A stretch of DNA of 50,843 nt from NCBI GenBank assembly GCA_021736135.1, contig JAIPGO010000017.1, positions 1-50,843 of the forward strand, in the 5' to 3' direction. The notes beneath the pieces were generated by a model that saw only the letters and a list, made by a program, of their open reading frames with translations, searched no databases and was not told the origin of the DNA. Below are positions 11,825-23,484 of this stretch, one piece after another; position 1 is the stretch's first letter; each line of letters starts with the position of its first letter. The position numbers and the translations under genes were made by a program. Source of the stretch: Candidatus Cloacimonadota bacterium (GTDB lineage Bacteria; Cloacimonadota; Cloacimonadia; Cloacimonadales; TCS61).

Positions 11825-13318
11825 ATGGATAAGATAATGGATTTGATCAGGAACGGCATCGAAGGCAGAAGACTGGAATTCAAGGAATTTTTGCCAACTG
11901 GTGATATTCTATCTAAAACTGTAGTCGCATTCAGTAACAGTGTTGGTGGCAATCTGATCATCGGAATTAAAGATAAAACCAGGGAGATAATCGGAGTCGA
12001 TGAAAATGAGATTCTGGCGCTTGAGGAGAAAGTATCCAACATTATCCATAATAGATGTGAACCGATTATTTTACCGGAAATATCAATTTATCGCATTGAT
12101 GATAAGCTGATTATGCTGATCAAGGTTTTCCCTGGTTCAAATTTACCCTATTATCTAAAATCAAAAGGAAAAGAGAAGGGCACGATTATCCGTGCCGGTT
12201 CATCAAACCGGCTGGCAGACAGGGCAATTATTGCTAATCTGGAAAGAAAGAAGCAGAATATATCTTATGATTCTGAAGCGGTTTATGAATTTGCTGATCA
12301 ACTTGAATTAACCGAATTCACGGAATTCTATAACCAGAAAACCGGCAGGAAAATTGGAAAAGAACAGCTTATCAGCCTGGGATTACTGATAAAAGAACGT
12401 AACACGATATTACCCGCCAGAGCTGGAATACTACTGGAAAAGAAGGAGAGACGAGAGAGCTGTTTCCGCTTTGCACAAGTAAACTGTGGACGTTTTAAAG
12501 GTCGTTCAATGTCTGTGATTTTAGACCAGTATTGCGTTGACAATCCGATATTTGCTCAACCGGAAGAGGTCATGAATTTCATTAAGAGAAATATCGCCCA
12601 GTCATCTACTATCGGTGAAGTATATCGGGAAAACAGATGGGAATATCCTTTGATAGCAGTACGGGAAGCCGTAATTAATGCCATAATACATCGGGATTAT
12701 TCAATGTTGGGTAGTGACATAAAGGTGGCGATATTTGATGATATGCTGGAAATAACCAGTCCAGGCAGCTTGCCCGCAAATTTTGATATATTTGATATTT
12801 ATAATAATCCCTCTGAAATAAGAAATCGAGTGTTAGCTCCCATATTCAAGGACTTGAAATTGATTGAGCAGTGGGGCAGCGGAATGAAGAAAATTAAAAA
12901 CGAGATGGAACAATATCCTGAGCTTGAATTAAAGATAAATGAACTGGGAAATGCGACGCAGATTCAATTCATTAAAACTAACTATATTGAAGATGATAAG
13001 GTGACCGACCATAAACCCGCACATGATATCGCACATGATACCGCACATGATACCGCACATGATAAAGACCAAATATCTGATCAGGAAAAAAAATTAATAC
13101 TTGCCATTTCTGATGAGGAATTAACTAGAAAAGAGATTTTTAATAAACTGAAAATAACTCATAGAACAACATATAATGAATCGTATCTGAAACCAGCAAA
13201 ACAAAATGGACTAGTTGAATTGACAATTCCAGATAAACCACAAAGTAAAAGTCAAAAATACCGGCTTACTGAGAAAGGAATCAGGCTTTTAGAAAGATTG
13301 ATAGAAGGAGAATTATAA
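11825..13318 (+). CDS. AlbA_2 (Schlafen-type) / RecG-related transcriptional regulator with winged helix
   Basis: A 497-residue protein. Residues about 10-120 are an AlbA_2 domain: EGRRLEFKEFL, then VVAFSNSVGGNLIIGIKD and GVDENE. Residues about 200-365 are the ATP-binding region of this regulator family: AVREAVINAIIHRDYS, ITSPGSLP, NPSEIRNRVLAPIFKDLKLIEQWGSGMKKI. An acidic linker with AHDT repeats is at about 398-413, and a C-terminal winged helix follows (LTRKEIFNKLKITHRTTYNESYLKPAKQNGLVE, then KYRLTEKG). Such proteins are presumed DNA-binding regulators, some linked to toxin-antitoxin or phage-defence loci. It has its own promoter and stands alone. The target is unknown. Confidence 0.8.
   Translation: MDKIMDLIRNGIEGRRLEFKEFLPTGDILSKTVVAFSNSVGGNLIIGIKDKTREIIGVDENEILALEEKVSNIIHNRCEPIILPEISIYRIDDKLIMLIKVFPGSNLPYYLKSKGKEKGTIIRAGSSNRLADRAIIANLERKKQNISYDSEAVYEFADQLELTEFTEFYNQKTGRKIGKEQLISLGLLIKERNTILPARAGILLEKKERRESCFRFAQVNCGRFKGRSMSVILDQYCVDNPIFAQPEEVMNFIKRNIAQSSTIGEVYRENRWEYPLIAVREAVINAIIHRDYSMLGSDIKVAIFDDMLEITSPGSLPANFDIFDIYNNPSEIRNRVLAPIFKDLKLIEQWGSGMKKIKNEMEQYPELELKINELGNATQIQFIKTNYIEDDKVTDHKPAHDIAHDTAHDTAHDKDQISDQEKKLILAISDEELTRKEIFNKLKITHRTTYNESYLKPAKQNGLVELTIPDKPQSKSQKYRLTEKGIRLLERLIEGEL
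13019..13063 (+). repeat. 12-bp in-frame tandem repeat (AHDT units)
   Basis: Consecutive units of GCACATGATACC (the first ends ATC, the last is cut after GAT) give 3.75 copies and encode A-H-D-I/T repeats. A degenerate D-H-K-P unit precedes them. It lies in the linker between the ATP-binding region and the winged helix, so copy-number changes would alter linker length without shifting frame. Candidate variable-number tandem repeat. Confidence 0.85.
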
Positions 13319-15203: not shown

Positions 15204-15285
15204 GAAGAAATATTTATAGAATTATTTGACTATAAAAGAACTATTAGGTTATTATCATTCTGAAAAATATTGGCAGGAAGTGATT

Positions 15286-16371
15286 ATGAAGGCTTTGATT
15301 ATCATATTATTAATTATTTCAGGAACATTGCTTAATGCTTATGAACTGGGAGAACCAAAATTACCTTTTGCACCGAAAACTTACGCAGCCCCCAAAATTG
15401 ATGAATACATTTTCATTGATGGAAAAATAACAGATACGGAATGGCTGGAAGCGAAATGGACTGATTATTTTGTGGACATCGAAGGTGACCTGAAACCCGA
15501 ACCGCGCTATAGGACCCGGGTAAAAATGATGTGGAATGACTATTATTTTTATATTGCAGCAAAACTCTCCGAAAAGCACGTCTGGGGCACTCTTGATGTG
15601 CATGATTCAGTGATTTTTCAGGACAATGATTTTGAGGTTTTTATTGATCCTGACGGAGATACGCACAATTATTATGAACTGGAGATAAATGCGCTTGGAA
15701 CGATCTGGGATCTGCTGCTTTTGCATCCTTACCGGGACGGTGGTCAGGTGGCAATTGACAGCTGGGATATCCACACGCTGCAAAGTGCCGTTTATGTGGA
15801 TGGAACTATTAATGATCCGGATAGTCCTGATATTGCCTGGTATGTGGAGCTGGCTATTCCCTGGGAAGTTTTAGGTGAATGTGCTCAGCAGTCACCACCA
15901 CTGTCGGGTGATTACTGGCGGGTAAATTTTTCGAGGGTGGAATGGCAGCACGAAATCGTGGACGGCAAATATCAGAAAGTGGCCGGACAGCCAGAAGATA
16001 ACTGGGTCTGGAGTCCGCAGGGTTTGATCAATATGCACTACCCGGAAATGTGGGGTTACGTGTATTTCGTGGATAAGACGCCCTCCCGCGATGGCAAGGT
16101 GCAGATGTTCATCCCGGAAGAAAAAGCCAAATGGCTGCTGCGCCAGGTTTATTACCGCAATTATAGTCAATACCGGACAACAGGGGTATACACCAGTGAT
16201 ATTGAGCAGCTGGGTCTGATGGACATTGATCATGGCATTTTTGAGTGGCCTCCTCTTATTGAAATCACAACTTCAACCTTTGAAGCGACTATCTCATTAC
16301 CCAATACTGAAAATTCAGTTCACATCAATAATATGGGAAAAACCTGGAAAACCCAGACTGTTGAACCCTAA
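15286..16371 (+). CDS. secreted CBM9-like (carbohydrate-binding family 9) protein
   Basis: A 361-residue exported protein. The signal peptide is residues 1-19 (MKALIIILLIISGTLLNAY). A CBM9_1-like jelly roll follows: IDGKITDTEWLEAKWTDYFVDIEGD, RTRVKMMWNDYYFYIAAKLSEKHVWGT, DNDFEVFIDPDGDTHNYYELEINALG, and WYVELAIPWEVLG with YWRVNFSRVEW. Relatives bind polysaccharides at the cell surface. No catalytic domain is visible. The ATG at 15286 with AGGAAG at 15275-15280 is chosen over the upstream TTG at 15226, which would hide the signal peptide. The next TPR gene follows 13 bases later. Confidence 0.78.
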   Translation: MKALIIILLIISGTLLNAYELGEPKLPFAPKTYAAPKIDEYIFIDGKITDTEWLEAKWTDYFVDIEGDLKPEPRYRTRVKMMWNDYYFYIAAKLSEKHVWGTLDVHDSVIFQDNDFEVFIDPDGDTHNYYELEINALGTIWDLLLLHPYRDGGQVAIDSWDIHTLQSAVYVDGTINDPDSPDIAWYVELAIPWEVLGECAQQSPPLSGDYWRVNFSRVEWQHEIVDGKYQKVAGQPEDNWVWSPQGLINMHYPEMWGYVYFVDKTPSRDGKVQMFIPEEKAKWLLRQVYYRNYSQYRTTGVYTSDIEQLGLMDIDHGIFEWPPLIEITTSTFEATISLPNTENSVHINNMGKTWKTQTVEP

Positions 16372-16989: not shown

Positions 16990-17835
16990 ATGGAAGAGAT
17001 TAAAAGCTTGCTCAGCACCCTTGCAAAAGAAAAAAATAATATCCAGAGTATTCTGGCATCTCTCAGAAGTCTGGAAAAAGTTATGGAATTTCCGGAAAAC
17101 AATCTGCATAAAATTAAAATCGAAGTTGAAAAGGTAACAAAAAAATTAACTACCAGCAGTTTAATTGACCCTTTGAAAGAGGAAATTGCCTCTACAATTC
17201 AGAATTATCAGGAACAGATACCAGACTGGGAAATTAAAGCAAAGAAAATGTTCTTTGAAGAACTGGAAAACGTACTTGCAGAAGCTGGTTTTACATTGCG
17301 AGGAGATAGTTCGCGTTTGATGGTTTCGGTTTTTACGCTGGAACTTGATCTGGATAACTTGAAAGTGATTATCTGGTATGGTAATAAGCAGGAAAACGTA
17401 GTGAGTTGCCGTTTAAATCCGGCAGCAGTAGTCACAAAACTGGCAGCAGCGCAGAAGAAAATCATGGAACGTGAATTTGACAGCGAGACATTTCTGGCGC
17501 AACTCTTCAGTGCCTATAAAGCAGCTTCTGAACGGCAGATCGGCAAAGATAAAACGCGGGTGCCCATTTCTGATGTTTTGAAGGAATTTGTATATCTGAT
17601 CCAGCCCAAGAAGTTTTATCTGAATCCATCCAAAAACAATTTCCTGGGTTATGAAAGAACCTTTTTCAGTTTCGATATGTTTCGTCTGCCGGAACGTGTT
17701 ATCGAAGGCTATGAACTGAACCTGATCACTGCCACGCGGGCATATACAAAAAACAGGACTAATTTCCTTTGGATTCCCACAGATTTACTGGGGAATGGAG
17801 ATTATATTTCTCATATCACATTTAAGGAGATTTAA
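16990..17835 (+). CDS. coiled-coil protein, first gene of the BrxD/helicase island
   Basis: A 281-residue protein of unrecognised family. Residues 1-80 are predicted coiled coil (heptad-rich, LLSTLAKEKNNIQSILASLRSLEKVM and on). The rest is mixed alpha/beta (VFTLELDLDNLKVIIWYG; FLWIPTDLLGNGDYISHITF at the C-terminus). There are no nuclease, methylase or P-loop motifs. The ATG at 16990 has AAGG at 16977-16980; a TTG at 16939 is rejected. Only 3 bases separate its stop from the first ATPase, so it is likely the specific partner of that machinery, for example a DNA or target adaptor (inference). Confidence 0.6.
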   Translation: MEEIKSLLSTLAKEKNNIQSILASLRSLEKVMEFPENNLHKIKIEVEKVTKKLTTSSLIDPLKEEIASTIQNYQEQIPDWEIKAKKMFFEELENVLAEAGFTLRGDSSRLMVSVFTLELDLDNLKVIIWYGNKQENVVSCRLNPAAVVTKLAAAQKKIMEREFDSETFLAQLFSAYKAASERQIGKDKTRVPISDVLKEFVYLIQPKKFYLNPSKNNFLGYERTFFSFDMFRLPERVIEGYELNLITATRAYTKNRTNFLWIPTDLLGNGDYISHITFKEI

Positions 17836-17838
17836 ACA

Positions 17839-19074
17839 ATGGAAAGCAAAGACTTACTGACCCAGTTTGTGGCACGTAAGATCATTGAAACCGTAGGCAG
17901 TCAGGGCAATCCACCTGAATATGGTTTTCAATATTTCTCCGCAGGTCTTGAAGTTTACCTGAATACTATTGAAAATGAATATCTGAAAACGTATATCCGA
18001 GATGGTGGTTCTGTTTTCAAGATGGTTGTAGGCATTTATGGGGAAGGTAAGACGCATTTTCTCTTTTCTGTGCGGGAAATAGCCTGGGAGCATAATTATA
18101 TTTCAGCCTATATACCTTTGAATCCTGAGCAGACGCCCTTTCACAAATTACAACAGGTCTATAAGTCCATTGTGGCAAATCTGATTTATCCCCAGACGCC
18201 GGATGAGTTACTTTCCGGGCACGAACGCGGCATTGAAGCAGTGATCAAAAAATGGTATAATGAAAAATACCAGGAAATAGCTGCCAATACGGAAGAAGAT
18301 GCCGTTATTGATGAACTGATCAGATATGCCTCATCCCTTGATAGTTACGAAAGTAACAGCTTTCGCAATGCTCTCAAAGAAGCATTCCTGAGTCTGGTGG
18401 AAAAAAGAGAAGATGATTTCTCCCTGATTATTCAGTGGCTGGTCGGTGAGAATCCACCCAAAAATATGCTGAAGAATTTCAAGATATTTGAAAAACTGGA
18501 TAAAAGCAATGCCTTCAAAATGATCCGGTCTTTGATAGAATGGATACAGGAAATCGGTTATACGGGTTTAGTTGTCCTGCTTGATGAAGCGGAACAGACG
18601 CCATCAATGTCTTCTTCTCAGAAAAATACTCTTCTCAATAACCTGCGGGAATTAATTGATGAATGCGGACACACCAATTTCCAGAGCACGATGTGGTTTT
18701 ATGCCGTGACCGATGAGAACTTTCTGGAAGGTAAAACATTGATCTATGAAGCACTGCGCCAGAGGCTATCCACAATTTTCGACATCGAGATCAATCCCAC
18801 AGGTGCCAAGATATATCTGAACAGAATTCCCACCGAACCCATCACACTTCTCAAAGATATCGGGCATAAATTAGCCAAAACCTATGAAATTGCTTATGAA
18901 ATTTCATTTAACGAAAAAACATTGGATGAAACTCTGTTGAATATTGCCACGGAGGCTTATAAGAGAAAGCTGGAAACCGGCTACAAAAGACTTTTTGTCA
19001 AAAGCATTATCACGGCCTTTCACAAAATGCGTCAATCCGGTAGTTCGCTCATTCCCGAAGACATCAATATGTGA
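17839..19074 (+). CDS. BrxD-like P-loop ATPase (DUF2791 family), copy A
   Basis: A 411-residue ATPase. Walker A is GIYGEGKT (65-72); Walker B is LVVLLDEAE with D249-E250. The opening VARKIIETVG and the arrangement of P-loop followed by NPEQTPFHKLQQVYKSIV match the BrxD/DUF2791 family of BREX phage-defence loci (from memory). There is a sensor-like STMWFYAVTDENF and a C-terminal helical region. It starts 3 bases after the coiled-coil gene and overlaps the second ATPase by 4 bases (GTGA). It could form a hetero-oligomeric ring with copy B that feeds DNA to the helicase (inference). Confidence 0.75.
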   Translation: MESKDLLTQFVARKIIETVGSQGNPPEYGFQYFSAGLEVYLNTIENEYLKTYIRDGGSVFKMVVGIYGEGKTHFLFSVREIAWEHNYISAYIPLNPEQTPFHKLQQVYKSIVANLIYPQTPDELLSGHERGIEAVIKKWYNEKYQEIAANTEEDAVIDELIRYASSLDSYESNSFRNALKEAFLSLVEKREDDFSLIIQWLVGENPPKNMLKNFKIFEKLDKSNAFKMIRSLIEWIQEIGYTGLVVLLDEAEQTPSMSSSQKNTLLNNLRELIDECGHTNFQSTMWFYAVTDENFLEGKTLIYEALRQRLSTIFDIEINPTGAKIYLNRIPTEPITLLKDIGHKLAKTYEIAYEISFNEKTLDETLLNIATEAYKRKLETGYKRLFVKSIITAFHKMRQSGSSLIPEDINM

Positions 19075-20399
19075 TTGAGCAACATAATATGATAAAAGTA
19101 GAGCATAAATACTACGGTAGTGGCATCGTCCGTAAACAGCGTTATGGCGGTTTTGAATTCTATACTGAATTTGCCAATGGGATTATGCGCTGGATTAGAC
19201 GTGATGAAGTAACCCTTCTAACAGAACCGCAATTATTACCTAAACACAAGCTGCATGTCAGCAAAATTCCGCAAGATCAATTCCGGGCAAGAAAAGCGAT
19301 AGAAGCGTTGAGGCTCGGTATTGTACCTCATGATTCCCTGGAAAATTTTACTATTGGCAGAGATAAGGAAATCAAAGCGCTCACTAAATGGTTCGAAAAT
19401 GATAAAAAGGGTTCTCTTTTTATCCGGGGCGAATATGGCAGCGGGAAATCACATTTACTGGAATATACCCAGATATGGGCATTAAAAAACGACTGGGCAA
19501 CGGCAACGGTGGAAATTGGTCTGGAGGAAAATCCATTTTTTAAACCTTATCAGATTTATCGCGAAATTGTGAAAAACTTCCGCTGCAATTTTGAAGGCAA
19601 GGTTCTCGGATTTCGTGATGTATTACGCTATCTGCGGTTGCATGATCCGGAAATATTCGATACGCATCTCTATTTTAAGGAATTTCTAGCACAATTTACT
19701 CAGTTTGAGCAAAGAAATCAGGATACTACGAATAAACGGAAGGCTATCACTGAGGAAAAGATATGGGAATGGATCGAGGGCGAACATAACTGGTTTAAAC
19801 CATCTTTGTCACAGGTTGGCACGGCAGCGAATCTTTATAGCTATGTAATTAATGCCCTTTCCTGGGCTGTTGCCAATTTGTTGAATCTAAAAGGTTTGGT
19901 TATCTTATTTGATGAAGCGGAGCATATTGATGAAGCTACTTATAAATATCAGTCCGAAACCGGTGCCAGTTTCCTGAATGGGATCATTGCTTTGGCAGAA
20001 AATCAGGAAACTTTACTCAAAGAAAAGATTTCAACCGACAAGAAAAGAGGCTATAAAACCGGTTTGATTTATTGTGGCTTTCCCCGCAATAATCCCCTGC
20101 GCTATGCCTGGAAATATCCTTCTAACCTGAAAGTGATCTTTGCCATGACTCCGGTGCAGGAACATACCAATATGATAGATCTACAAATGCTAAGAAATGA
20201 TGATCTGCTGACCATCACTTATAATGTGGCGCAGTTCTATAAAATTGCCTATGGTTTCGAAGTCAGTGACGAGGTGGTGAACAGGCTTTTTAAAAAACTG
20301 CCCCGGCTCAGAACAAGGCTTTTTATCAAATATTGCGTGGAAGCCCTTGACATTCTGCGTTTTAATCCGCAAATATCGTTTGAGGATATTTTAAAATAG
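19071..20399 (+). CDS. BrxD-like P-loop ATPase (DUF2791 family), copy B, with N-terminal SH3-like module
   Basis: A 442-residue ATPase. Residues 10-50 (HKYYGSGIVRKQRYGGFEF, then FANGIMRW) look like the small CarD/UvrD-C-terminal beta-barrel that binds DNA or polymerase. After it comes the DUF2791 signature FRARKAIEALRLGIVP (71-86), FTIGRDKE, Walker A GEYGSGKS (120-127) and Walker B LVILFDEAEH (D281-E282). It fits canonical BrxD better than copy A does. The GTG start overlaps copy A's stop; the ATG at 19089 is an alternative. The helicase gene follows 10 bases downstream. Confidence 0.78.
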   Translation: MIEQHNMIKVEHKYYGSGIVRKQRYGGFEFYTEFANGIMRWIRRDEVTLLTEPQLLPKHKLHVSKIPQDQFRARKAIEALRLGIVPHDSLENFTIGRDKEIKALTKWFENDKKGSLFIRGEYGSGKSHLLEYTQIWALKNDWATATVEIGLEENPFFKPYQIYREIVKNFRCNFEGKVLGFRDVLRYLRLHDPEIFDTHLYFKEFLAQFTQFEQRNQDTTNKRKAITEEKIWEWIEGEHNWFKPSLSQVGTAANLYSYVINALSWAVANLLNLKGLVILFDEAEHIDEATYKYQSETGASFLNGIIALAENQETLLKEKISTDKKRGYKTGLIYCGFPRNNPLRYAWKYPSNLKVIFAMTPVQEHTNMIDLQMLRNDDLLTITYNVAQFYKIAYGFEVSDEVVNRLFKKLPRLRTRLFIKYCVEALDILRFNPQISFEDILK

Positions 20400-20409
20400 C
20401 CGGCTGATT

Positions 20410-21963
20410 TTGAGAAAACTTTTAAAAAATACCTGGACTGTCTTTTTCAGCAGATATGCCGCAATGACGGATATTCAAAAGAAAGCTATTCCGCTGATAA
20501 TGGAAAAGAAGAATGCTCTGCTGATTTCTCAAACTGCCAGTGGAAAAACGGAAGCGGTAATTGTTCCTTTACTGGAAAGATTGCTGTCCGAAGAATGGCA
20601 GGGGCTTTCTATAATATATATATCGCCGACCAAAGCCTTAGTAAATGACCTGAATTTTCGTTTGAAAGAATTATGTAAGGAATTGCACATCTCTGTTTCC
20701 GTTAAAACAGGTGATAAGCCGCAATTTAATCCCGAGAAAGTTACGGATATTTTAATTACTACGCCGGAATCATTCGACTCCATTCTTTGCCGCTATCAAT
20801 CGTGCCTGCAAAACCTGCAAGCCCTCATTTTAGACGAAATTCACCTCCTGGATAATACATATCGCGGTGATCAGCTTCGGGTTTTGATCAAACGCGCCGG
20901 AATGATTTCTCAGAATTACCTGAATATTTATCTGCTTTCTGCTACTGTTGCCGATCCTGTGCAGCTCGCTTCCCGTTATGCTAAGGATATGGAAATCATT
21001 GAAATTCCAGGCAGTCGCACCATTCATCACACTAATATCTCCAGCTTTGAAGAACTCCGTGAATATGCTAACGCTGAGGATCTAAAAAAGATACTCATTT
21101 TCTGCAATAAAAGAGTCAGCGTGGAAAACTGTGCCAACGACTGTAAAAAACTGTGGGGTGACCACCTGGTGGTGGCACATCATGGCTGTTTAAGCGCTAA
21201 GATCCGTCACGAAGCAGAAAGCTTTATGAAACAGAATTATTATGGTATCTGTGTGAGCACTATGACTTTGGAAATTGGTGTGGATATCGGAAGTATTGAT
21301 GCCGTAGTTCTTGCGGAAGTTCCCTGGAGTCGTTCCGCTTTATTACAAAGAATCGGCAGAAGTAACAGGCGCTCACAAACCATTCGCACCTTTGGTTTAT
21401 GCAAATATGATAGTGAAGAAAGAATGCTGGAAACAATGCTGCATGCCGCAGAAAAGGGCTATTTGGAAGAATGTAGCTATCACTTCGACAATGCCGTGAT
21501 CATTCAGCAGATTTTTTCGCTGCTTTATGCTGATCCTCAAGGTTTTGCTGAAATAAACCTGATAGATTTTCTGAAAGAATTTTGTGATGAAAAGGTTATT
21601 ATCAATATTCTTCATCATCTGGAAATACTGACTTGGATAAAGAACAGAAACTGTTTCTGGTTTGCCTCCACAAATCTCATGAATCTTGGAGATATGGGTA
21701 AAATTCATTCCAATATTCCTGACACTAAAGCTTACAAGGTTATCAATATTCTCATTAAAGCGTATATCGGAGAAGTAAACGGCAACGTTGACAGCGTCTT
21801 TTTACTCGCTGGCAACATCTGGAGAATTGTTTATAAATCAGAAGGAAGATTCTTCGTTACTCCAGCCTCTGATGAATTCACATCCACAAAATTTAAAAGA
21901 AACCTGCAAAAATCACGATTTGAAGAACTGCTCCCCCTTAACTACCAGAAAGACCAACCCTGA
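20410..21963 (+). CDS. Lhr-like superfamily 2 helicase (BrxHI-like)
   Basis: A 517-residue DExH helicase. Motif I is TASGKTEA (42-49), Ia SPTKAL, Ib TTPESF, II DEIH (142-145), III SAT (177-179), V TLEIGVDIG (286-294) and VI QRIGRSNR (313-320). A winged-helix-like segment follows. Its length is short next to classical Lhr (over 1,000) but near the core of BrxHI-type proteins. It likely unwinds or translocates on DNA with the two BrxD-like ATPases. TTG 20410 is the probable start because the Q-motif region (DIQKKAIP) would be lost with later ones; the ribosome-binding site is weak. It ends the island, convergent with the carboxypeptidase gene. Confidence 0.8.
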   Translation: MRKLLKNTWTVFFSRYAAMTDIQKKAIPLIMEKKNALLISQTASGKTEAVIVPLLERLLSEEWQGLSIIYISPTKALVNDLNFRLKELCKELHISVSVKTGDKPQFNPEKVTDILITTPESFDSILCRYQSCLQNLQALILDEIHLLDNTYRGDQLRVLIKRAGMISQNYLNIYLLSATVADPVQLASRYAKDMEIIEIPGSRTIHHTNISSFEELREYANAEDLKKILIFCNKRVSVENCANDCKKLWGDHLVVAHHGCLSAKIRHEAESFMKQNYYGICVSTMTLEIGVDIGSIDAVVLAEVPWSRSALLQRIGRSNRRSQTIRTFGLCKYDSEERMLETMLHAAEKGYLEECSYHFDNAVIIQQIFSLLYADPQGFAEINLIDFLKEFCDEKVIINILHHLEILTWIKNRNCFWFASTNLMNLGDMGKIHSNIPDTKAYKVINILIKAYIGEVNGNVDSVFLLAGNIWRIVYKSEGRFFVTPASDEFTSTKFKRNLQKSRFEELLPLNYQKDQP

Positions 21964-22035: not shown

Positions 22036-23484
22036 TTAATTGTTTAGTAGATAGATTATTTGATCAATTAACTCGGAAGCTTTCTGCGGATTATTATAGT
22101 TATTTACCATAATTGAGAAGACAAGTTTCTTATTTCCGTTATAGAGATAGCCGGAAAGGCAGCTTATCCCGCTCATGGAACCGGTTTTAGCATATATTTC
22201 TGGTGAGAGATCATTCAATCGTTTTTCCAGAGTGCCTGGCAGCCCGGGTTGCGGCAGGCATTTTTCCCATTCCGGTGAATTCTGCATTGCCAGCAGCACT
22301 TTATTTAAGACTACCGGAGACAGCAGGTTATAACGTGAAAGCCCGCAGGCGTCTTTGTAATTATAATCAAGCCTGGAAATGCCCAGAGTTTCCAAATACA
22401 CTTCCACATACAATTTACCGTTTTCAAAAGAACCGTATCCCGTTTCCTGCCAGGCCATCGTACGCAGTAGAGCTTCTCCCGCCTGATTATTGGAATCCTG
22501 CAGAAATTCCCGGATCACGTATTGCAGTTGTGGCGAATATGAGGTAAACAGGGGAGTTATTGTTTGCGGTTTTTCCGTCAGTTCATCAATATCACGGGAT
22601 TTACCGCTGATTAGTATGCCATTATTTTCCAGTATGGATTTCAATAGACTGGCATAATAAAGTGTTGGATTAGAAGCCGTGACTGATTTATTGGCAGCTC
22701 CTGAGGTTGAATTGAATTTTCCAAAAAGACTTACCATATTTAATCCTGTTAAGCGCCGGGCATGCACTCCTTCTTCCAGTGTGTCAGAAACTGTGATCAG
22801 GTTTTCATAATTCAAATATGGAAAGGGGAGATTATCAATAAAGGTGATTTCCTTAGTATTATTTTGCGGTGGCAGCAGTGTGATCTCGACAGTGGTATTA
22901 TTTACCATCAGTGGACCGAATTCCGCAGAAAAAGGAAATGAAAGGTCTTCCCAGGCCCAGCCATAACCCAGATGCTGTTCTTCAAAAAGATCGTCATTTC
23001 CCACCACATCGCCGCGTATTTCGCTGATGCCATGCATACGCAGCGAATCTGCCCAGGCTTTAAACACATTCTCCGGGTCGCGCCAGTGCCGCTTGTCCAG
23101 CGTAGGGTCGCCGGTTCCGGTCACAATCAGGTCACCAAACAGGATGTTATTATTGGTAAAACCATTATATCCAATAAACGTAGGGATCCGGTATTCCTGT
23201 CCCAGGGTGTTCCAGAGCGTGGCAGCAGTGATCAGTTTCAGTGTGGATGCAGGCACAAAAAGCTGCTCGCTGCTCAGGGAATATAGCTTATCACCGGCTT
23301 CATTCTGCACAATTATGCCCCAATGCGCTTTATTTTGCGGATATTCTCCAATTACGTCTTCTATCCTGGCAGAGATGCCTTCGCGTTTGATAATATCGAT
23401 CTTATACAGGCTGTGCTGCTGTGAACAACCGGCAGTTAATGCCAGGAAAAATATGATTACTATCTGTAACTTTTTTAATTTCAT
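22036..23484 (-). CDS. dacB: D-alanyl-D-alanine carboxypeptidase/endopeptidase, PBP4 type, lipoprotein
   Basis: A 482-residue class C penicillin-binding protein (peptidase S13). Lipobox LTAGC with Cys20 indicates membrane anchoring. Active-site motifs are STLK (80-83), SNN (in LQDSNNQAGEAL) and KTG (in YAKTGSMSG). GDLIVTGTGDPTL is the usual S13 insert region. It trims or cleaves peptidoglycan peptide cross-links outside the membrane. It is transcribed away from the S9A peptidase gene across a 100-base divergent spacer and converges on the helicase gene. Confidence 0.9.
   Translation of the reverse strand: MKLKKLQIVIIFFLALTAGCSQQHSLYKIDIIKREGISARIEDVIGEYPQNKAHWGIIVQNEAGDKLYSLSSEQLFVPASTLKLITAATLWNTLGQEYRIPTFIGYNGFTNNNILFGDLIVTGTGDPTLDKRHWRDPENVFKAWADSLRMHGISEIRGDVVGNDDLFEEQHLGYGWAWEDLSFPFSAEFGPLMVNNTTVEITLLPPQNNTKEITFIDNLPFPYLNYENLITVSDTLEEGVHARRLTGLNMVSLFGKFNSTSGAANKSVTASNPTLYYASLLKSILENNGILISGKSRDIDELTEKPQTITPLFTSYSPQLQYVIREFLQDSNNQAGEALLRTMAWQETGYGSFENGKLYVEVYLETLGISRLDYNYKDACGLSRYNLLSPVVLNKVLLAMQNSPEWEKCLPQPGLPGTLEKRLNDLSPEIYAKTGSMSGISCLSGYLYNGNKKLVFSIMVNNYNNPQKASELIDQIIYLLNN

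Follow-up and report, generated by a model that had tools for sequence, protein, structure and literature searches.

What is the function of four tightly packed genes that combine a coiled-coil protein, two different BrxD-like ATPases and a helicase? The genes occupy positions 16990 to 21963 of contig JAIPGO010000017.1 from a Candidatus Cloacimonadota bacterium (GenBank assembly GCA_021736135.1), and the stretch of 50,843 nucleotides analysed here is termed the window. An earlier reading made from its letters alone (the sequence-only reading) had proposed a candidate new defence or DNA-processing system. The cassette, designated CC-A-B-H after its coiled-coil protein (CC), ATPases A and B and helicase H, is probably an undescribed defence module of the superfamily to which Shango (SngABC) and the BrxD-BrxHI pair of type 2 bacteriophage exclusion (BREX) belong, and would act through a heteromer of A and B and CC-guided loading of H. 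An immune role, related to Shango and BREX, is proposed because the four genes are an ancient unit that is scattered among bacteria and archaea and often stands beside antivirus genes. Immunity against viruses or plasmids is the best reading of its target.

Gene order and co-diversification

The cassette of the window consists of four open reading frames, with spacings of 3, -4 and 10 bases from CC through A and B to H. These coordinates and spacings match the first description of the locus.

16990-17835, + strand: CC, 281 aa, open reading frame with its ATG start at 16990
17839-19074, + strand: ATPase A, 411 aa, AAA+ protein of the BrxC_BrxD family (PF10923)
19071-20399, + strand: ATPase B, 442 aa, GTG start, second and paralogous AAA+ protein of the BrxC_BrxD family (PF10923)
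20410-21963, + strand: helicase H, 517 aa, TTG start, superfamily 2 (SF2) protein with DEAD and Helicase_C domains

Besides A and B, the 4.1-Mb assembly contains no other PF10923 gene. The set includes no nuclease, methylase or PglZ, as the sequence-only reading had noted, and the open reading frames around the cassette include no PglZ, PglX, BrxC/PglY or PglW. Promoter and terminator sites are no more numerous in a scan than in shuffled sequence.

A single scan of 84,980 species genomes with an ATPase B profile gave 73 loci. These span Cloacimonadota, WOR-3, Acidobacteria, Poribacteria, Planctomycetota, cyanobacteria, anaerobic methanotrophic archaea (ANME)/Methanosarcinales, Brockarchaeota and others. 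Profile searches of their open reading frames place the four genes in the same fixed order at 48 of the 73 independent loci, in both domains of life. Compact operons are found in Desulfomonile tiedjei DSM 6799, Aulosira laxa NIES-50, Carboxydothermus islandicus and Methanosarcina sp. KYL-1. Among the incomplete loci, contig ends truncate about eleven, three (L084, L092 and L094) have a distant ATPase only, and four (L064, L072, L078 and L090) are diverged or degraded. The order is kept in three close Cloacimonadota relatives (L022/L006, L023/L007 and L025/L021), and a very diverged Cloacimonadota form also occurs (L020/L086), with proteins 27% (A), 25% (B), 22% (CC) and 33% (helicase) identical to those of the window. 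No fifth gene recurs widely beside the cassette.

The tree distances of the four proteins correlate pairwise, with r of 0.90-0.94 across 40 loci (Mantel p≤0.001 each). Such a correlation is as expected if CC, A, B and H evolve together, and shared host ancestry could contribute to it. With the conserved order, it bears out the proposal that the four genes form one system; they are confirmed as a real, ancient unit, not a chance cluster.

Other genes are occasionally found in or next to the unit. In the diverged Cloacimonadota form (genome G085, L020/L086), the helicase is immediately followed by a gene for a protein of 295 aa (L020:6783-7670, - strand), which appears nuclease-like by eye and has no Pfam, PADLOC or PDB match. 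A RhuM-family gene lies between ATPase B and the helicase in one close relative (L023:7053-7787), and several other cassettes contain inserted PIN, RelE-like or toxin-antitoxin-like, Fic, GNAT or RhuM genes.

Two ATPases, a helicase and a new protein family

The description of two different BrxD-like P-loop ATPases and a helicase holds at the level of families and of motifs, whose conservation was assessed over 46-60 homologues.

18031-18057, + strand: Walker A of A, GIYGEGKTH, residues 65-73; G68, G70, K71 and H73 invariant in 60/60 homologues
18571-18597, + strand: Walker B of A, VVLLDEAEQ, residues 245-253; D249 and E250 invariant in 60/60 homologues
19092-19220, + strand: small N-terminal beta-barrel of B, residues 8-50; five strands in a confident model
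19428-19454, + strand: Walker A of B, GEYGSGKSH, residues 120-128; G123, G125, K126 and H128 in 57/57 homologues
19899-19925, + strand: Walker B of B, VILFDEAEH, residues 277-285; D281, E282 and E284 in 57/57 homologues
20833-20844, + strand: helicase motif II, DEIH; D142 and H145 in 46/46 homologues, E143 in 44/46

Both ATPases exceed the PF10923 gathering score of 22.2 bits in Pfam, A with 154 bits (E 6.2e-45) and B with 88.5 bits (E 5.9e-25). PADLOC ranks BrxD first and SngB second for each, with 130 and 81 bits for A. Neither reaches the cut-off of 350 bits of the NCBIfam BrxD equivalog NF033438, A scoring 129 bits and B 69 bits. When A, B, BrxD and SngB are placed in one tree, the B proteins all form one group (support 90-92) and the A proteins form one group or nearly so, with two changes in the best tree and a single clade not rejected (approximately unbiased test, p 0.54). 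BrxD and SngB stand separate from both, with supports of 99 and 100. The branching within A mirrors that within B. The ATPase had been described as duplicated, and the two are indeed paralogues; the tree indicates an ancient, fixed pair. A recent duplication is rejected, as A and B split deep in the tree at all loci. A is the slowest evolving of the four proteins.

The AlphaFold2 (AF2) model of B has a predicted local distance difference test score (pLDDT) of 90, and Foldseek returns generic AAA+ matches only, including RuvBL, ORC/Cdc6, DnaA and Hda, at template modelling scores of about 0.3-0.5. B had been credited with a CarD/UvrD-like module. A confidently modelled small beta-barrel is present at its N terminus, and no family search put a name on it; it may contact nucleic acid or a polymerase. 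The barrel separates the two major clades of the cassette family, being present in that of the window and absent from the other (e.g., L020). In the Methanosarcina group, B carries a very long N-terminal extension at L037, L040, L041 and L044 (739-1042 aa in total), and a proline-rich stretch of the L044 protein weakly matches extensin.

Helicase H matches DEAD (1.4e-35) and Helicase_C (1.2e-16) in Pfam, and BrxHI (5.8e-68) and SngC (6.4e-63) in PADLOC, where the top matches are BrxHI, SngC, BrxHI and DpdJ in that order. Motifs I, II, III and VI are present in the window copy and near-invariant in homologues. The best PDB matches are mycobacterial Lhr-type ATP-dependent DNA helicases. The resemblance to Lhr is to its helicase core; Lhr is ~900-1500 aa in length, whereas H has 517 aa, lacks the large C-terminal part and sits in the CC-A-B-H operon. 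Also missing from H are the ~180 C-terminal residues that BrxHI and relatives of ~700 aa have. This short form is common to many relatives, including Methanosarcinales and genome G026. Helicases of the barrel clade measure about 525-760 aa and those of the second clade about 700 aa, truncated copies aside. The cassette helicases form one clade (support 100), apart from BrxHI and from SngC, itself a clade with support of 99. A published analysis treats SngC, BrxHI, DruE and DpdJ as an SF2 clade that is potentially distinct and is defined by functions against phages (PMC12278908), and by its closest profiles and intact motifs H is placed with this group. In these trees, A, B and H stand outside the BrxD/BrxHI and SngB/SngC groups, with support that varies.

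CC, the remaining component, was aligned with 61 homologues. Sporadic coiled-coil matches aside, none of the 62 members has a family assignment in Pfam, NCBIfam, PADLOC or PHROGs. The weak matches to LeoBC, QatB, Rad50 and LmuB, in 1-4 of the 62, are a composition effect and were rejected as identities. The AF2 model (pLDDT 95.1, predicted template modelling score 0.85) has three long N-terminal helices (residues 1-98) followed by an alpha/beta domain, and finds nothing at E≤0.001 with Foldseek in PDB or in the viral proteins of BFVD. By these comparisons, CC is the founder of a new protein family that current annotation models do not cover. Hydrophobic residues and glycine make up most of its best conserved positions. 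Because no catalytic site is apparent among them, a scaffold or recognition protein is the simplest reading. In all sets compared, CC has diverged more quickly than A.

Neighbouring genes and mobility

The cassette is often adjacent to defence genes, in keeping with the sequence-only reading: they are found at 12 of about 60 genome loci, at both plasmid loci and at 2 of 20 further WOR-3 loci (L164-L183), counts that have no matched control. Such neighbours occur in both clades of the cassette family. In a Verrucomicrobiales locus (L085, 1-11202), the cassette lies inside a BREX-1 operon, PglX-[CC-A-B-H]-PglZ-BrxL, on one strand with gaps of ≤42 bp, the 3' end of PglX preceding it. On a plasmid of the cyanobacterium Aulosira laxa (L096, AP018310.1, 1-11539), the tail of a BREX-2 locus, PglZ-BrxD-BrxHI, is followed 172 bp on by a complete CC-A-B-H, so that two BrxD-helicase style modules stand in tandem. 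At L083, PglZ and BrxC are convergent with the cassette. Elsewhere, Cas7-Cas5 lie directly upstream (L090), and nearby genes include HsdR (L046), a HinP1I restriction-modification system (L049), GmrSD (L028, L042 and L043), a PLD helicase with a DUF1156 methylase (L058), RloAB with an Eco57I-type methylase (L093, where the CC match is weak), SIR2 (L070), TIR (L074), AbiE (L095) and, in WOR-3, type III methylases (L165 and L182). As evidence, the neighbours are strong in the three cases with BREX and suggestive elsewhere.

In some lineages, the cassette is rare and appears mobile. Of 125 Cloacimonadota genomes, 5 have CC, as do 5 of 112 Methanosarcinaceae genomes; one more Cloacimonadota match (E 6e-5), which lies within a frame of 586 aa, appears spurious. 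Two plasmids carry the cassette, one from Desulfomonile tiedjei (pDESTI.01, with a cassette of the long-helicase clade) and one from Aulosira laxa. In the window, it is enclosed by two genes that do not belong to it.

15226-16371, + strand: left flanking gene, 68-71% identical in relatives without the cassette at this site
22036-23484, - strand: right flanking gene, D-Ala-D-Ala carboxypeptidase-like by sequence

In relative G004, both flanking genes stand 11 bp apart, an empty site. In G019 and G026, no more than one to three genes, TPR-like or without a name, separate the same pair, and G026 has its cassette elsewhere, after a prmC-like gene. The ATPase A proteins of L026 and L030 are nearly identical, one from a Methanosarcinales and one from a Deltaproteobacteria metagenome-assembled genome, both named CSMAG; either the gene has passed between domains recently or the binning is at fault.

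A proposed immune helicase motor and its alternatives

In the mechanism proposed here, A and B would come together in an AAA+ heteromer of the ORC/Cdc6 kind, serving as a loader or switch for H. CC would be the adaptor that, together with the barrel of B where present, brings A/B to invading or abnormal DNA, the two acting as recognition or anchoring parts. ATP hydrolysis by A/B would then load or unlock H, which would translocate on the target DNA and either block replication or transcription or expose the DNA to host nucleases; these outcomes are favoured because the set has no nuclease. Self-marking by methylation would not be needed, and the trigger would therefore be a DNA structure or replication state, not a sequence. 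In its fullest form, the proposal is tentative and falls somewhat short of an even chance: a self-sufficient, nuclease-free and modification-free immune system across bacteria and archaea, in which an obligate heteromer of ORC/Cdc6-like ATPases, guided by a protein with a new fold, puts a helicase on the DNA of an invader, as an immune parallel to the loading of replicative helicases.

The pairing of a BrxD-type ATPase with a BrxHI-type helicase is common to Shango and BREX-2, and the literature examined settles on no mechanism for it. BrxD, an ORC/Cdc6-type AAA+ protein, has been suggested as a possible loader of BrxHI (PMC12839542). In CC-A-B-H, this logic is stripped down to a pair of paralogous ATPases, a single helicase and a new adaptor. 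If immune, it is a missing member of the Shango/BREX-2 group, and the idea of a helicase loader as immune motor becomes directly testable.

Several observations weigh against this immune reading. At the window locus, no neighbour is clearly a defence gene; the sole candidate is a gene with SLFN_AlbA_2, HATPase_c_4 and Fic-like C-terminal regions at 11825-13318, 3.6 kb upstream of the cassette. Neighbours at other loci were picked by eye and then tested, and the proximity counts have no matched background. Seven loci consist of CC-A-B without an adjacent helicase, and four of their genomes have no clear H. A solitary cassette-type H, with no CC, A or B nearby, is encoded on another contig in two of these genomes (G129, 505 bits; G130, 476 bits) and may act in trans, a point in favour of the four-gene unit.

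L139:6461-8038: solitary cassette-type helicase
L140:4277-6295: solitary cassette-type helicase

In a third such genome (G125), H (737 bits) lies on a 3-kb contig that is possibly the broken continuation of the locus.

The remaining contrary points also favour the alternative that survives best, an unlikely one that nevertheless deserves weight. It holds that the cassette is a cellular DNA-maintenance module for repair or for stalled-fork or R-loop processing, in which A/B, without any part in immunity, place a helicase resembling Lhr on damaged or transcribed DNA of the host cell and presence in islands reflects general gene transfer. CC is found in 58 of 147 WOR-3 genomes, and many of these have the cassette at fixed positions: at 6 of the 20 WOR-3 loci it precedes the same run of genes (cutA, mgtE and a transporter), and at three more a glycosyltransferase. 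Part of WOR-3 thus inherits the cassette vertically, as for a resident function and unlike the patchy pattern elsewhere. Several Methanosarcina species likewise share its flanking genes, so that in both groups the pattern is more like a stable cellular function. No match occurs in the phage or viral collections searched, and H resembles Lhr, a cellular helicase. Universal conservation as a housekeeping locus in the phylum, which the sequence-only reading had set against its own proposal, is not found in Cloacimonadota, and the fixed chromosomal positions in WOR-3 amount to it in part.

A maintenance role is harder to reconcile with the rarity of the cassette in Cloacimonadota and Methanosarcinaceae, with its repeated position beside or inside BREX, CRISPR, restriction-modification and abortive infection (Abi) loci, including the type III methylases at two WOR-3 loci, and with the immune function of its closest characterised kin (PMC10250203, PMC12278908). 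The quick divergence of CC also argues against it: across seven WOR-3 loci, mean identity is 52% for CC, 79% for A, 77% for B and 68% for H, with values for neighbouring genes of 86-92% (two membrane-protein genes) and 62% (cutA). In WOR-3, the cassette may serve DNA maintenance or a long-retained immune function. If the role is cellular, the cassette points to a possible origin of the BrxD-BrxHI motor.

Two further alternatives would assign the cassette to a known defence system. Shango, reported to be anti-phage (PMC10250203), is likewise a compact operon of one BrxD-type AAA+ ATPase, one BrxHI-type SF2 helicase and one further protein; it also lacks nuclease and methylase and resides on plasmids and in defence islands. 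The link to BREX-2 that had been drawn for the window locus holds as kinship to BrxD and BrxHI, but not to BREX-2 alone, as the three-gene Shango system is equally close. A diverged Shango subtype, with A or B as SngB, H as SngC and CC in place of SngA, would share the same ATPase-helicase logic, and SngB and SngC score close behind BrxD and BrxHI. It is nonetheless improbable. CC-A-B-H has two paralogous ATPases throughout, where Shango has SngB only, and SngB and SngC are separate clades from A/B and H. SngA has TerB-N and TerB-C domains; TerB has no match in CC or its 61 homologues, and homology of CC to SngA is rejected by profile comparison (hhalign probability 0.1).

An accessory module that works only with BREX proteins, and is an orphan fragment in the window, is very improbable. 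The cassettes in or beside BREX at L085, L083 and L096 and the BrxD/BrxHI kinship speak for it. The BrxD-BrxHI pair of type 2 BREX likewise places an ORC/Cdc6-like AAA+ protein beside an SF2 helicase. Most cassettes, however, have no recognised BREX gene in the recovered flanks, and Aulosira has a complete BREX-2 BrxD-BrxHI pair in addition to the cassette. The cassette lacks PglW, PglX, PglY/BrxC and PglZ, has two ATPases and the new CC protein, and forms separate clades. The PADLOC scores of A (121-130 bits) and H (228-326 bits) fall well short of the values for a true BrxD (552 bits) and a true BrxHI (848-929 bits). A chance cluster or decaying remnant in the window genome, as the short helicase and its TTG start might hint, is refuted by the intact motifs, the many relatives with the same short form and the order kept at 48 loci.

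CC-A-B-H lacks defining features of both Shango and BREX and is therefore classed as neither, though it probably works like them. The expectation that it is not a named system agrees with PADLOC, Pfam and NCBIfam, where only the BrxD/SngB and BrxHI/SngC kinship appears, and with the literature searched, which gave no description of the gene set, subscription papers and preprints lying largely outside that search.

Two minor observations concern neighbouring genes. An isoleucyl-tRNA-synthetase-like gene lies in the shared flanks of three of the four Methanosarcina-group loci with extended B proteins. Genes of AlbA_2 type are found not only upstream of the window cassette but also near the cassettes of L045 and L046.

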